A program made the position numbers and the translations under genes. DNA of 64,000 nt, from the NCBI GenBank assembly GCA_903856805.1, contig CAIOCZ010000090.1, positions 1-64,000 of the forward strand. Direction: 5' to 3'. Numbering within the stretch: position 1 is the stretch's first letter; each line of letters begins with the position of its first letter. The notes beneath the pieces are model-generated. The model saw nothing but the letters and a program-made list of their open reading frames with translations, searched no databases and was not told the origin of the DNA. The DNA comes from an uncultured cyanobacterium (GTDB lineage Bacteria; Cyanobacteriota; Cyanobacteriia; PCC-6307; Cyanobiaceae). Shown here in pieces: positions 720-6,982 of this stretch.

Positions 720-1697
720 TTATGAAATTAATGGAAAACGAAGGATAACCTCAGCGCCTCCGAGCTCTGCGGACCGGCGAATCGACATCGTGCCACGGTG
801 ATTTTCAACCGTGGCACCAACCAGATAGAGGCCAAGACCCATTCCGGTTGTTCGTGTTGATGTAAAAATCCTGTCCTCCATAGCGCCCTTGGCATCCCAC
901 TCCATGGGAAAACCAGGGCCACTATCAGCAATGGAAAATTCAACAAGATCGGAAATAGTTCGCAGAGAGATGTCAATGACTTTTATTTCAACAGAATCTT
1001 GACTTAGTGCAGCAATAGAATTCCTGATTAAATTTGTAATAGCAACTTGAAGTTGGGCTCCATCGCCATAAATCACCGAATGAGGATCTCCGGGTTTTAG
1101 ACCAGTGACATTCAAGTAGATCTGCTCACTAATAATCAGTCGATTAAGATAGGTAAGAACAGCTCCAATAACCTGAGGGAGATCGACTGGTCCCTGCTCA
1201 GTCTGAACGCTTTGTAAGAGCATGCGCATTTTCTCAATAAGCTCAACTAGTCGCTGGGATTCCGTTAACAAAACCTGTAACAAGGGCAAACTCTTACTGA
1301 GCTGGGGTAGTTCATCAGTTTGCTCAATCAAGCGCTGACTAATCAGACTCAGGCTGCTTAGAGGCTGATTAACTTCATGGGCAACGGCAGCTGCGGTCAG
1401 ACTGGTACGCAGCTTCTGACGCAGCTCTTGCTGTTGAATGCTCAGGGTTTGCTGAATCGTGGACAGCTGTTTGGTTCGATGCCTCAATCGATAGTCCGAC
1501 AGCAATATCAAGCCAAGACAGCTCCCTAGTGCAATAAGCTGGAGATGATCTCTTTGATCGCTCCGGACGAACAACTTAAGCGGGATAGTTGCAACACCAA
1601 GGCCTGTCAGGATAAGCAGTAATGCACGAGTCAGGCCAAGGGCCCAGAGTAGTCGTCTCCTGTTAGTTCCATAAGCAGTATCAGTGCTCATGCCCAT
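720..1697 (-). CDS. Sensor histidine kinase, HPK4/DctB-like, two predicted N-terminal TM helices and no large sensor domain
   Basis: H-box AHEVNQPLSSLSL, N-box NLIRNSIAAL, G-boxes DSGPGF and GMGLGL; hydrophobic N-terminus. Confidence 0.9.
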   Translation of the reverse strand: MGMSTDTAYGTNRRRLLWALGLTRALLLILTGLGVATIPLKLFVRSDQRDHLQLIALGSCLGLILLSDYRLRHRTKQLSTIQQTLSIQQQELRQKLRTSLTAAAVAHEVNQPLSSLSLISQRLIEQTDELPQLSKSLPLLQVLLTESQRLVELIEKMRMLLQSVQTEQGPVDLPQVIGAVLTYLNRLIISEQIYLNVTGLKPGDPHSVIYGDGAQLQVAITNLIRNSIAALSQDSVEIKVIDISLRTISDLVEFSIADSGPGFPMEWDAKGAMEDRIFTSTRTTGMGLGLYLVGATVENHRGTMSIRRSAELGGAEVILRFPLIS

Positions 1698-2283
1698 ACA
1701 TCACGGCATATCGGATGAGTTCCGACCCGGAAATCCCAAGTTTAGAACGCATGTTTCGACGATGTACCTCTACGGTGCCAACGGCCACCGAGAGGGTCTC
1801 GGCAATGGTTTTATTGCTGCAACCCTGTCCGACTAAAGCGAGGACTTCAAGCTCTCGACTCGTAAGAGCATCCGTGACATCTAAATTTTCAGGAAGCGAG
1901 GAAACATCAGAATTATCTCCAATGAATGACTTAATTTCATCCCTAAGAACATCAAAAGCTCTATTTTTATCAACAACAGCATGTAGCATGGGGCGGAGAT
2001 GAATTGGGCATATGAAACTGGTTGCCTGACCTGACAGAACAATGAAGCGAGCCAGGGCACTTTGATTGTGTAGAGCTTCAGCGACGTTGATTCCAGAAAA
2101 ATCTGGTAACGACAAGTCAAGAATTAGCAAATCAGGATTAAGATCAATCACATGCTGAATTCCTTCGGCACCTGTTTCCGCCGTAGCAGCAATGTTAAGA
2201 CCAGAAATTCTTTTGAGAACGGGCAAAAGTAGTTCTACAAACATCGACTGGTCTTCCACTAGCACACAATCAATCTGAGTCAT
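1681..2283 (-). CDS. NarL/FixJ-family response regulator with LuxR HTH
   Basis: Receiver: VEDQ, LLILDLSLPDFSG, VLSGQA, VVDKN; C-terminal LTSRELEVLALVGQGCSNKTIAETLSVAVGTVEVHRRNMRSKL. Start chosen at MTQIDCVLVED; the ORF extends to 2346. Confidence 0.9.
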   Translation of the reverse strand: MTQIDCVLVEDQSMFVELLLPVLKRISGLNIAATAETGAEGIQHVIDLNPDLLILDLSLPDFSGINVAEALHNQSALARFIVLSGQATSFICPIHLRPMLHAVVDKNRAFDVLRDEIKSFIGDNSDVSSLPENLDVTDALTSRELEVLALVGQGCSNKTIAETLSVAVGTVEVHRRNMRSKLGISGSELIRYAVMYGHEH

Positions 2284-2437
2284 GACAGAACCTCCCTCAT
2301 CATCTTGCCATGGATCGGCCAAAAACCAAAGCCGAACCAAGCGCATTCAATCCAATCGGACACCATGACATGAGTTCGCATTTTTGGATACGGTAGTATG
2401 ATCAAATACTTCCTCGTCGTTCAGCCACCATCAATTA

Positions 2438-3496
2438 ATGCTTAAGGCAAATATCTGGCCTCGAATATTTGTACTCTCTCTCGTTATGGGTATTTTTGGC
2501 TATGCTTGGCAGCAACTAAATGAACTCACTCTTTACGTTGTTGGGCAGCCCTCGAGCGTTGGTCCACTCCAAAGCAAGATGGAAGCACCATTCTTTACTG
2601 CCTTGCGACAAAAAAGTAAGCTGCCATTAGACATAACTTATAAGCCATTAAATGAAACTGGTTTGATCGATGCCTACCAACTACAAACTCTTCAAGACGG
2701 TGTCATTGATCTAGCATCGCTAAGATTTATTCAAAACAGTAAGGTTGAACCCGCCTTGGCCGGAATAGATTTGCCAGGCTTAATTCAAGATTTTGACACA
2801 GCAAGACGTGTCACCACCAACTATGGTCCAACTCTCGACCACTATCTCCAACGTCAACACAATATCAAACTGCTAGGATTATGGACCTTCGGCCCCCAGC
2901 AAATTTTTTGCAAAACGCGAATTAATAATATTAAAAGTTTCAGTGGCATGAAAATTCGGATACCCAGTTCCTTCATGTCGCCTTTAATCTCAAAACTTGG
3001 TGGGATTCCAGCAGTCATCTCCTTCGACGAGACGAAGCAAGCATTAGCTATCGGGCTTGTTGATTGCGCAATTACAAGTATTGCCTCAGCCAATAGTGCA
3101 GGATGGACAGAGTACACCCCTTATTATATTCCATTGGCCTTTGGCTTTGGAATTAATGGATATGCTATATCGATGAAAAAATGGAATGAGCTGTCTTCAT
3201 GGCAACAGGCAACCTTCCAAAAAAGTATAAATTCTTATCTCAATGATCATTGGAAATATTCCAGACAAATCTACATCAATGCCCGAGAGTGCTCAACTCG
3301 TAGACTTTGTCAAGATGGGAAATCATTCCCATTGATTGAGATCTCTCCATCAAAATCTGATATTACTTTTCTCCAAAATGTTTCTCGAGCTACTATTAAA
3401 AAAAGCTGGGCTTCGCAATGTGAACTCATTCATCATGGTTGTCTAAGTCAATGGGAGAAGGTCATTGGCTCAATACTCCAATCAAAAATGTTTTAA
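2438..3496 (+). CDS. TRAP/DctP-like extracytoplasmic solute-binding protein with N-terminal signal/anchor
   Basis: FSGMKIRIPSSFMSPLISKLGGIPAVISFDETKQALAIGLVDCAIT ... GFGINGYAISMKKWNELSSWQQ resembles the DctP signature; hydrophobic N-terminus. Confidence 0.75.
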   Translation: MLKANIWPRIFVLSLVMGIFGYAWQQLNELTLYVVGQPSSVGPLQSKMEAPFFTALRQKSKLPLDITYKPLNETGLIDAYQLQTLQDGVIDLASLRFIQNSKVEPALAGIDLPGLIQDFDTARRVTTNYGPTLDHYLQRQHNIKLLGLWTFGPQQIFCKTRINNIKSFSGMKIRIPSSFMSPLISKLGGIPAVISFDETKQALAIGLVDCAITSIASANSAGWTEYTPYYIPLAFGFGINGYAISMKKWNELSSWQQATFQKSINSYLNDHWKYSRQIYINARECSTRRLCQDGKSFPLIEISPSKSDITFLQNVSRATIKKSWASQCELIHHGCLSQWEKVIGSILQSKMF

Positions 3497-3506
3497 AACA
3501 AGTTAA

Positions 3507-4970
3507 ATGAATATTAAGCGCGCAAAACTGGTATCCGAGTATAGACTTGCACCCAAACTAGCTGTCCCGTTGCAAACAATTTCACTTTTGGCGGCGGTAG
3601 TTTTTGTTGCCTCCTTTACACACGAAGTTCTAGATACAAACAACTTATACGTTAATCAGCATTTTTTATTGACAATACTTCAATTACTTTTGACTCTTTG
3701 GGCTTTTATAGAGGTCAAGTCTGTGGCGTCAAAGATTACCTATACTCCACTGAAAAGTCTTGAAACAGTTTTAGTGGTTCAATTTATCGTTTTACTGATT
3801 CGTGGATTCACTGGGGATGGTGGGTTCATTGAACCATCTAGCACTTCAACATATATTTTTCACCCTAAATTCGAGGTGGCCCTTGCATTCACTCCCATTT
3901 ATTTGATTTTATTTTCGGGTATAATATATTTTATCATTAAATCGTTTGCCTATGCTGAGTTTATTAAAAAAAATCAACTCGGTCAAGAAATGATCAGTCT
4001 GAAGGAAGCCCAATCAGCTCTTGTTGACAGTGAGGAACGCTATCGAATAATTACCGAATGGGCCCATGATGTGATTTGGAGTCTAGATACTAATGGTAAC
4101 TTTGTTTTTGTAAGTCCATCGATCGAGACCTTTACTGGGATCAAACCCAATGAGCTCGTCCATCAGTCACCTTCTAGAATCCTGACAAAATTTTCCTTTC
4201 ATTTACTCGATTTAACCTTACAAACCATCGCTAGACAAGTCAAATTATCCAATCGTTTTCAACAATATTGCATAGAACTTGAATACATTCCTTTTTCTGA
4301 TAAAGTCATTACAGCAGAAGTTAACTTAAATTGTCTTTTTGACAGTTTCGGTGTCTTCACAGGTTTTGTTGCAATTAACCGAGATATTACAGAGCGAAAG
4401 AAGATGGAAATTGAACTCCGTCAAGCAAAAGAAATTGCGGAAGCTTCTAATCTTTCCCTGCTTGCCGCCAACGCAATTCTCCATGGTCATGCCACGACTG
4501 ATCAATTAACAGGAGTTGCCAACCGTCGACATTTTGAAAACTCTTTGGAATCTCAAATTTCTCATTGCCAATTGCTTGGCTCTGCGATTTCCTTGGTTGT
4601 TATCGATATTGATAATTTTAAAGCAATAAATGATTGTTATGGACATCAGGTTGGTGATATGGTACTAGTTGAATCGGCTAGGCTTCTGCAAAGTACTCTA
4701 CGAAAACGAGATCTCCTTGCCCGTTGGGGTGGGGATGAATTTATTATATTACTTTCCGGTTCAAGTGGAACTGAAGCCTTTGGCCTGGCTCAACATCTCT
4801 GCGATAAGTTTCAAGTTCATCGTTTTCCTGTCGTAGACCGCCTAACGGCAAGTTTTGGTGTGGCTGAGTTTCAAGAATCTGAAAGGATAGAAGATTGGTT
4901 TACTCGAGGTGATGAAGTTCTTTACGCTGCAAAATCAGCTGGGCGAAATTGTGTAAAATTTAGCGCATAA
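3507..4970 (+). CDS. Membrane PAS-GGDEF diguanylate cyclase
   Basis: Several N-terminal hydrophobic segments; PAS (SEERYRIITEWAHDVIWSLDTNGNFVFVSPS); DQLTGVANRRHFE; RKRDLLARWGGDEF (I-site RxxD plus GGDEF). Confidence 0.93.
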   Translation: MNIKRAKLVSEYRLAPKLAVPLQTISLLAAVVFVASFTHEVLDTNNLYVNQHFLLTILQLLLTLWAFIEVKSVASKITYTPLKSLETVLVVQFIVLLIRGFTGDGGFIEPSSTSTYIFHPKFEVALAFTPIYLILFSGIIYFIIKSFAYAEFIKKNQLGQEMISLKEAQSALVDSEERYRIITEWAHDVIWSLDTNGNFVFVSPSIETFTGIKPNELVHQSPSRILTKFSFHLLDLTLQTIARQVKLSNRFQQYCIELEYIPFSDKVITAEVNLNCLFDSFGVFTGFVAINRDITERKKMEIELRQAKEIAEASNLSLLAANAILHGHATTDQLTGVANRRHFENSLESQISHCQLLGSAISLVVIDIDNFKAINDCYGHQVGDMVLVESARLLQSTLRKRDLLARWGGDEFIILLSGSSGTEAFGLAQHLCDKFQVHRFPVVDRLTASFGVAEFQESERIEDWFTRGDEVLYAAKSAGRNCVKFSA

Positions 4971-5122
4971 TACTGCTTGGAGCGGGAAATTACTGGTCTT
5001 GATTGAATAACCTTCGTGCCTTACGAATTCGATTGAATAAATAGGTTCTTTGGGTTATGATGTGGTTACCTTGTTGGTTCCATGGCCAATGGGCCTAAGT
5101 ACGGAGCTGTTCGCCGAACCTG

Positions 5123-6070
5123 ATGTCACAGTCATCGATCAACTCCCCCCAGTTGCAGGCCGCCTCTCCTCCGATGGCCTACCTCATGGTCCCAGGTGTC
5201 GATGGGAGCAGTTCCTATCCTTGGGTAGGACGTGGCTGTATCCATTTGCTCGGAGTGGAGCCCGCTGAGCTCATGGCAAACAGTGGTAAATTTTGGTCCT
5301 TGGTGCATCCGTCCGATCGCACCCCTTTTAAGCTCGCAAAACTTAAGGCGATCCGTCAAGGAATTGCTTTTCGTGGCCGTTGTCGAATAGCAACAGAATT
5401 TGGCGAAGAGAAGCTGATCGAAGTTTCTGGTTATCCATTGCCATCAACAGTTCACGATTTTCCCAAGCTCTGGAGCCTCCAAGCTGTTGATGTGAGCTTT
5501 GAGAAACGGTTGATTGAGGAAATTAGAGAACTTAAAGAAGTAATTGGTCGGAATGAGAGCCAACTCAAATTTCAAATCAAATCTCTTGGTGAATCTCACG
5601 CTGCGATTGCCCGCCTCAGCGCCATAGATTCATTAACAGGAGTTGCTAATCGTCTCTCATTTCAACATTCTTTATGGAGGGAAGTTGCTGTGGCACAGCG
5701 CCATGGTAGCCCCCTTGGCTTGATTTCCATCAAACTGATGGGCCTGCGAGATCTCAATCGTGCCCAAGGCCTTTTGGCTGGTGATCAAGCTTTGACTCGC
5801 TTTGCTACGGTGCTATCCAATTTCCTTGCAAGCCATCACATTATCGGACGCCCCTCCGGAACGGTTTTCTGCGTACTGTTGCCTAGGGCTGATGATCAAA
5901 CAATTAATCTATTTCTACAAAGGCTGACTAGCATTATATCTAGTGATCAGAACCTGAGTGAAGGCGGGCTAACAGTCCATGCCGGAGCTACTTTTTGTAT
6001 GGTGGACGATAGTTGTGATTCATTTTACCAGCGGGCTGAATCTCAAATGCTGCAGAGTATTTTGGCATGA
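5123..6070 (+). CDS. PAS-like/GGDEF-like protein with degenerate GGDEF motif
   Basis: Retains IDSLTGVANRLSFQ and the GGDEF-domain scaffold, but the active-site loop reads GRPSGTVFCVLLPRA. Confidence 0.8.
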   Translation: MSQSSINSPQLQAASPPMAYLMVPGVDGSSSYPWVGRGCIHLLGVEPAELMANSGKFWSLVHPSDRTPFKLAKLKAIRQGIAFRGRCRIATEFGEEKLIEVSGYPLPSTVHDFPKLWSLQAVDVSFEKRLIEEIRELKEVIGRNESQLKFQIKSLGESHAAIARLSAIDSLTGVANRLSFQHSLWREVAVAQRHGSPLGLISIKLMGLRDLNRAQGLLAGDQALTRFATVLSNFLASHHIIGRPSGTVFCVLLPRADDQTINLFLQRLTSIISSDQNLSEGGLTVHAGATFCMVDDSCDSFYQRAESQMLQSILA

Positions 6071-6646: not shown

Positions 6647-6982
6647 TCAACGCATGTCAATCGCGTTCAGTCGATCGCGAAACGTGTTTCCGCTGCCTTG
6701 ATCTTCATAGAGGTCGGAGGAGGGGTCAACCAGAGGCGTAATCACCGGCAATGTCTCCTGGTACTGAAGTTGTCGCCGGGGCTTGCTCTGGGCGCTGCCG
6801 AGATTGGGGCGTCCATCGAGGGCGCGAATCAGGCTCCTGCTGCGATTCACGGCTCCGATCGTTTCCCCGTCCTTAGGACGGATCAGGGGGTTGCCCTTCA
6901 GTTCGCTGCGAACCTGGTTGAGAAGGCGGAAATGCCCCGTGGTGTTGTATTTGCGCAGAACGCTTGGATCCCAGCCCATCAA
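6647..6982 (-). CDS. Conserved cyanobacterial hypothetical protein
   Basis: MMGWDPSVLRKYNTTGHFRLLNQVRSELKGNPLIR... recalls a conserved picocyanobacterial small protein. Confidence 0.65.
   Translation of the reverse strand: MMGWDPSVLRKYNTTGHFRLLNQVRSELKGNPLIRPKDGETIGAVNRSRSLIRALDGRPNLGSAQSKPRRQLQYQETLPVITPLVDPSSDLYEDQGSGNTFRDRLNAIDMR

Follow-up and report, generated by a model that had tools for sequence, protein, structure and literature searches.

Organization of the gene cluster

The window studied here is a 64,000-nt stretch of DNA from an uncultured cyanobacterium of the family Cyanobiaceae (assembly GCA_903856805.1, contig CAIOCZ010000090.1). Close to its left end lies a cluster of five genes, one of which codes for a receptor of the DctP family (2438–3496, + strand; Pfam DctP, E=1e-23). 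Binding proteins of this kind normally serve a tripartite ATP-independent periplasmic (TRAP) transporter. After a gap of 10 nt (3496 to 3507) the receptor gene is followed by a gene for a diguanylate cyclase (3507–4970, +; Pfam PAS and GGDEF, E=1e-43), the N-terminal part of which is a four-helix membrane transducer domain, named TM4 here (3507–4016, +). The last gene on this strand codes for a protein with PAS and degenerate GGDEF domains (5123–6070, +; Pfam PAS_3 and GGDEF, E=4e-20). Divergent from the receptor gene lie those for a response regulator of the NarL/LuxR type (1681–2346, − strand; Pfam Response_reg and GerE) and a histidine kinase (720–1697, −; Pfam HisKA and HATPase_c), whose open reading frames (ORFs) share 17 nt (1681–1697). 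The five ORFs, the 17-nt overlap and the 10-nt gap had been described in a first-pass annotation made from the DNA letters alone, and all agreed with the ORF calls and Pfam domains obtained here. The start of the regulator is more likely to be at 2283 than at 2346, since inspection of the sequence revealed a good Shine-Dalgarno motif (AGGGAGG) before MTQIDCVLVED; the divergent intergenic region would therefore span about 154 bp (2284–2437). A promoter and terminator scan that included this region gave nothing above chance, and no promoter-like site stood out here. The grouping of the genes also held outside the window: all five recur in genomes G015 (locus L038) and G016 (L039, with the regulator relocated), and four of the five are present in G017 (L041, at a contig end). 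The arrangement is thus not due to chance.

The receptor is paired with TM4 while the output domain varies

A locus survey queried with the receptor alone returned 22 distinct loci, with receptor relatives 42–50% identical to that of the window. The receptor was present in seven of the 42 genomes of the genus, in other Synechococcales, in Gammaproteobacteria (Thiosymbion, Chromatiaceae), in Betaproteobacteria (Rhodoferax and others), in one spirochaete and in one planctomycete; the carriers thus belong to at least four phyla (Cyanobacteria, Proteobacteria, Spirochaetota and Planctomycetota). At 21 of the 22 loci the next gene downstream encoded an N-terminal TM4, and at several of them the stop and start codons of the two genes overlapped or abutted. 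One of the loci, L056, is cut by the end of its contig, but the start of TM4 is visible.

The domain fused to TM4, on the other hand, differed from locus to locus. PAS-GGDEF was found ten times (the window, L037–L041, L050, L053, L062 and L063), several unrelated kinase types nine times, and a GGDEF-EAL enzyme once (PAS-PAS-GGDEF-EAL, L068); in one locus the domain was not read. The kinases were of the HisKA-HATPase (L051, L057, L059), PAS-kinase (L042, L060, L065), hybrid kinase-REC (L052, L064) and HisKA_2 (L058) types. In a kinase tree the TM4-kinase cores of Beta- and Gammaproteobacteria lay far from the cyanobacterial ones; TM4 fusions thus arose more than once. The constancy of the receptor-TM4 pair in the face of these exchanges of output argues strongly that the DctP protein signals through TM4. 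In the spirochaete, a protein with methyl-accepting chemotaxis protein-type signalling and hemerythrin domains (L058:5034–6947) is encoded some 2 kb downstream of the receptor-TM4 kinase pair. The neighbours at the different loci were unrelated to one another, and a ligand could not be guessed from gene context.

TRAP transporter genes in the receptor carriers

The genome to which the window belongs (G000; a 3.0 Mb assembly, 99.5% complete) contains a single DctP gene, that of the cluster. The transporter subunits DctQ and DctM, which the first-pass annotation had reported missing nearby, were found neither near the cluster nor anywhere else in this genome. No DctM was detected in four other receptor carriers of the genus (G015, G017, G020 and G040) or in Synechococcus lacustris, and only weak partial DctM matches were obtained in G016 and in the Vulcanococcus, GreenBA-s and planctomycete carriers. 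In G032, a separate, ordinary DctP gene adjoins a truncated dctM at a contig end. Most cyanobacterial carriers therefore lack dctQM, and the receptor is not accompanied by these genes in all the genomes in which it is found. With the recurrence of all five genes outside the window, neither of the two outcomes that the first-pass annotation had named as refuting its proposal was observed.

Several observations weigh against a role of the receptor in signalling through TM4. The proteobacterial and spirochaete carriers own several TRAP transporters, one of which the receptor might also serve in trans in the Proteobacteria. Two carriers of the genus have a disrupted receptor gene: in G020 (L042:9511–10503) it is split by a transposase-like ORF, with the downstream TM4-PAS-kinase gene intact, while in G040 (L040:9329–10369) it is frame-shifted near residue 286, giving two matches in different frames that an assembly error could explain. 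One locus has no TM4: L049 (8912–10615), in Thiosymbion, is a degenerate second copy with an intact receptor, from which TM4 was lost and the GGDEF part of the cyclase was kept; in the same genome, L052 is a complete copy whose output is a hybrid kinase. The correlated divergence of DctP and TM4 (r=0.85, permutation p=1e-4) speaks for the pair, but shared ancestry contributes to it, and the two could be co-inherited without touching. In addition, many carriers are metagenome-assembled genomes, the named strains being Vulcanococcus limneticus LL, Synechococcus GreenBA-s and Cyanobium Cruz-8D1.

Some of these points would fit a receptor that is the relic of a lost TRAP transporter, or that works with a transporter in trans, its neighbours being incidental; it does belong to the DctP family, DctM proteins are numerous in the proteobacterial and spirochaete carriers, and two genomes have a broken receptor gene. 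This explanation appears highly improbable. Apart from the complete lack of DctM in most cyanobacterial carriers, the mean column identity of 60% in an 18-sequence alignment of the receptor, together with the adjacency to TM4, favours selection on the pair. Moreover, in the receptor tree a long branch separates the receptor clade, the unity of which has moderate support (77/72, 80% of bootstraps), from the cyanobacterial transporter DctPs.

TM4 is a membrane domain without a match to known families

TM4 comprises about 165 residues. Its alignment (19 sequences) is nearly gapless, the invariant positions including L22, L28, W65, E69, Q92, R99, P130, I144 and F147. The distribution of charges indicates an N-in/C-in topology with two outer loops, both short. 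An AlphaFold2 model (predicted local distance difference test score, pLDDT, 79) contains four helices, the last of which extends into the cytoplasmic linker. Searches against Pfam and NCBIfam gave scattered weak matches and no family, and no fold in the PDB matched at E≤0.001; on these grounds a known sensor domain was rejected.

DctQ has the same number of membrane helices as TM4, four (PMC5812351), and the N-in/C-in topology of TM4 and its partner from the DctP family would likewise suit a diverged DctQ subunit turned into a signalling input domain. Such an origin is nevertheless very unlikely: hhalign gave a probability of 0.4% and an E-value of 0.13 against a DctQ profile built on nine cyanobacterial sequences only, Pfam DctQ matched none of the 19 TM4 members, and the 50 best fold matches in the PDB did not include SiaQM. 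TM4 was accordingly not taken as a DctQ homologue, although the DctQ set was small.

The receptor retains the fold and a ligand-binding residue of TRAP proteins

The window receptor scored above the cut-off for PF03480 and for NCBIfam TRAP_S1. Its AlphaFold2 model (pLDDT 90) keeps the two-lobe TRAP fold, the best PDB matches being the TRAP substrate-binding proteins (SBPs) 4mev and 4n4u. A hydrophobic helix at the N-terminus (residues 6–27) may serve either as a signal peptide or, if left uncleaved, as an anchor. Arg174 aligns with R147 of SiaP, which binds the carboxylate of the ligand, and is invariant in 18 relatives; a carboxylate is therefore the likely ligand. Gln154, found in place of the arginine equivalent to SiaP R127, was considered as a signature of this orphan clade and rejected, since Gln is also present in cyanobacterial transporter DctPs and in the fusion proteins described below.

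In five genomes of the genus, single proteins were found in which an N-terminal CHAT (caspase-like) domain and a hydrophobic stretch are fused to a C-terminal DctP (L043:918–3119, L044:8603–10765, L045:8317–10479, L046:8398–10719 and L047:2716–4884). They look like receptor-proteases with a TRAP-type outer domain. Band_7/SPFH genes adjoin those in L044, L045 and L046.

The cluster encodes one intact and one degenerate GGDEF protein

The membrane PAS-GGDEF cyclase proposed in the first-pass annotation was borne out. The PAS domain (4035–4388, +) is followed by a GGDEF domain (4491–4949, +) with intact GGDEF and RxxD inhibitory-site motifs; R399, D402 and the GGDEF residues (408–412) are invariant in six orthologues, and the metal/GTP site is intact. 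The protein encoded at 5123–6070, noted earlier as GGDEF-like, has lost both the GGDEF motif and the metal-site Asp (PSGTVF, GGVDV or GGVEF in the window, L038 and L039), and judging from these residues is catalytically dead. The protein is conserved in this inactive form in L038 and L039. A role as partner or antagonist of the active cyclase is possible.

The separate histidine kinase and response regulator are probably accessory genes

At the N-terminus of the window histidine kinase a single hydrophobic helix is clear and a second is possible; no periplasmic sensor domain was found, in line with what had been described. By eye, the H, N, G1 and G2 boxes are present, as are the phosphoacceptor His of the kinase and the phosphoacceptor Asp of the regulator, as in two-component systems. 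The kinase had also been compared with DctB-type HPK4 kinases. Its H-box (HEVNQPL) does resemble that of HPK4, but Pfam assigned HisKA (PF00512) and no HisKA_4, and DctB-type kinases normally carry a periplasmic sensor, which is missing here.

Orthologues of the kinase (at least 53% identity) occur in four of the seven receptor carriers of the genus (G000, G015, G016 and G017) and in none of the 35 other genomes (Fisher p=3e-4, uncorrected for relatedness), while those of the regulator were found in L038, L039 and L041. At L059, a regulator 41% identical to that of the window precedes the receptor and TM4-kinase genes, all on one strand. The limitation of the kinase to receptor carriers and the position of the L059 regulator link the pair to the module. 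These same observations, together with the divergent placement of the pair in the window, L038 and L041, would suit a scheme in which the kinase and regulator are the primary readers of the receptor and the cyclase is a second output in parallel. This scheme seems unlikely, though less so than the transporter-based alternatives above: the window kinase has neither a TM4 nor a periplasmic domain, it is missing from three of the seven genus carriers and from all Proteobacteria, and the kinase tree does not place it as the specific sister of the TM4-kinases. The tree likewise gave no support to its being a split-off TM4 kinase. The pair is most likely an accessory that travels with the module, present only in some cyanobacterial copies. 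For these reasons, direct contact between receptor and kinase in the window, while plausible, is unproven and not supported.

The module was inserted next to a tRNA-Met gene

The cluster starts directly after a tRNA-Met gene (536–609, +; ARAGORN), within an AT-rich segment with approximate boundaries at 610 and 6800. Its genes have a GC content of 36–50%, versus 58–67% beyond 8.5 kb. In relatives the site is empty, and a few hundred bases separate the tRNA-Met gene from the flank on the peroxiredoxin side (G032, 288 bp; G016, 221 bp), compared with about 6.2 kb in the window. Both G016 and G032 carry the module at other sites, in G016 beside tRNA-Thr. The module in the window is thus a horizontally acquired insertion. 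No integrase was found in the island, and a search there for an attachment repeat of the tRNA 3′-end matched only the tRNA itself. A short ORF (6647–6982, −) overlaps a stretch that is conserved in relatives between the tRNA-Met and peroxiredoxin genes, and is possibly a real small gene.

The receptor tree interleaves cyanobacteria with other phyla. TM4 was missing from nearly all sampled genomes of the phylum, and of the family or order of two proteobacterial carriers; the module is therefore rare and patchy. Neither TM4 in the plasmids searched nor receptor relatives in the viral contigs searched were detected.

Proposed mechanism and comparison with known systems

Taken together, the receptor-TM4 cassette is probably a horizontally acquired ligand-sensing module in which TM4 acts as the transducer to the cyclase. 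This reading is built on the gene pairing, the conservation, the swapping of outputs, the lack of a transporter and the horizontal movement; from these we infer the binding of receptor to TM4, the class of ligand, the direction of control and the role of the kinase and regulator. The receptor, held on the periplasmic side of the inner membrane, would bind a small ligand (probably a carboxylate), close, and dock onto the short periplasmic loops of TM4. The fourth helix, which runs into the cytoplasmic linker and the PAS domain, would pass the change to the output: in the window a diguanylate cyclase making cyclic diguanylate (c-di-GMP), in place of which other species have a histidine kinase or a GGDEF-EAL enzyme. 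The same insertion would also carry, as accessory parts, the kinase-regulator pair and the dead GGDEF protein; the regulator may govern how the module is expressed or provide a transcriptional output in addition. Of the wiring suggested in the first-pass annotation, the receptor as sensor and the cyclase as its output thus remain most likely, whereas the direct link to the kinase is only plausible. The evidence further leans, with somewhat less assurance, towards TM4 being a new class of transmembrane input. Having no periplasmic domain itself, it would use its short loops to read a TRAP-type receptor dedicated to it and would connect to cyclases, phosphodiesterases and kinases of several classes, the whole forming a mobile two-gene cassette in at least four phyla.

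An undescribed membrane domain able to pass the state of a receptor to several enzyme classes would make it testable how a receptor signals via a domain with almost no outside surface. The partner is evident from gene order, the natural swaps of output are built-in controls, and the cassette offers modular parts for carboxylate sensors. For picocyanobacteria, insertion at tRNA genes would be a means of acquiring c-di-GMP-based sensing of the environment.

MASE-type membrane inputs are multi-helix domains fused interchangeably to GGDEF, EAL and kinase domains; none of those in Pfam matches TM4, however, which comes with a receptor gene dedicated to it. In Rhodobacter capsulatus, genes for a kinase and a FixJ/NarL-like regulator (DctSR) lie near a TRAP receptor gene (DctPQM), but they regulate a full transporter, of which the window genome has none. 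MbaA of Vibrio cholerae possesses a sensing domain in the periplasm, unlike TM4 with its short loops only, and the output of MbaA is not kinase-swapped in the present data. This inner-membrane c-di-GMP enzyme is regulated by the periplasmic binding protein NspS (PMC8967002). The window receptor would likewise steer a membrane c-di-GMP enzyme without belonging to a transporter, and in the family described here the SBP gene adjoins that of a signalling enzyme at 21 of 22 loci; the ligands of NspS, however, are polyamines, and it falls outside the DctP family. DctB of Bacillus subtilis is a TRAP/DctP-type protein. It is a C4-dicarboxylate co-receptor that works with the sensor kinase DctS (Graf 2014, as cited in PMC6978683), which differs, in the account given there, in having its own sensing domain and needing the transporter DctA, with neither TM4 nor a cyclase. 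In Bordetella, BctC, an SBP of a tripartite transporter family, activates the kinase BctE (PMC5812351, PMC9602780); BctC is of the TctC family, the transporter BctBA is present and the kinase has a periplasmic domain. Signalling roles of SBPs are thought to be widespread, with few characterised (PMC9602780). No description of a TRAP-type receptor paired with a cyclase was found in the literature searched, which was thin on subscription papers. The system had been put forward as undescribed; its principle, receptor-gated signalling driven by an SBP, is already known, and what is new is the pairing of a TRAP-type receptor with TM4, and TM4 itself.

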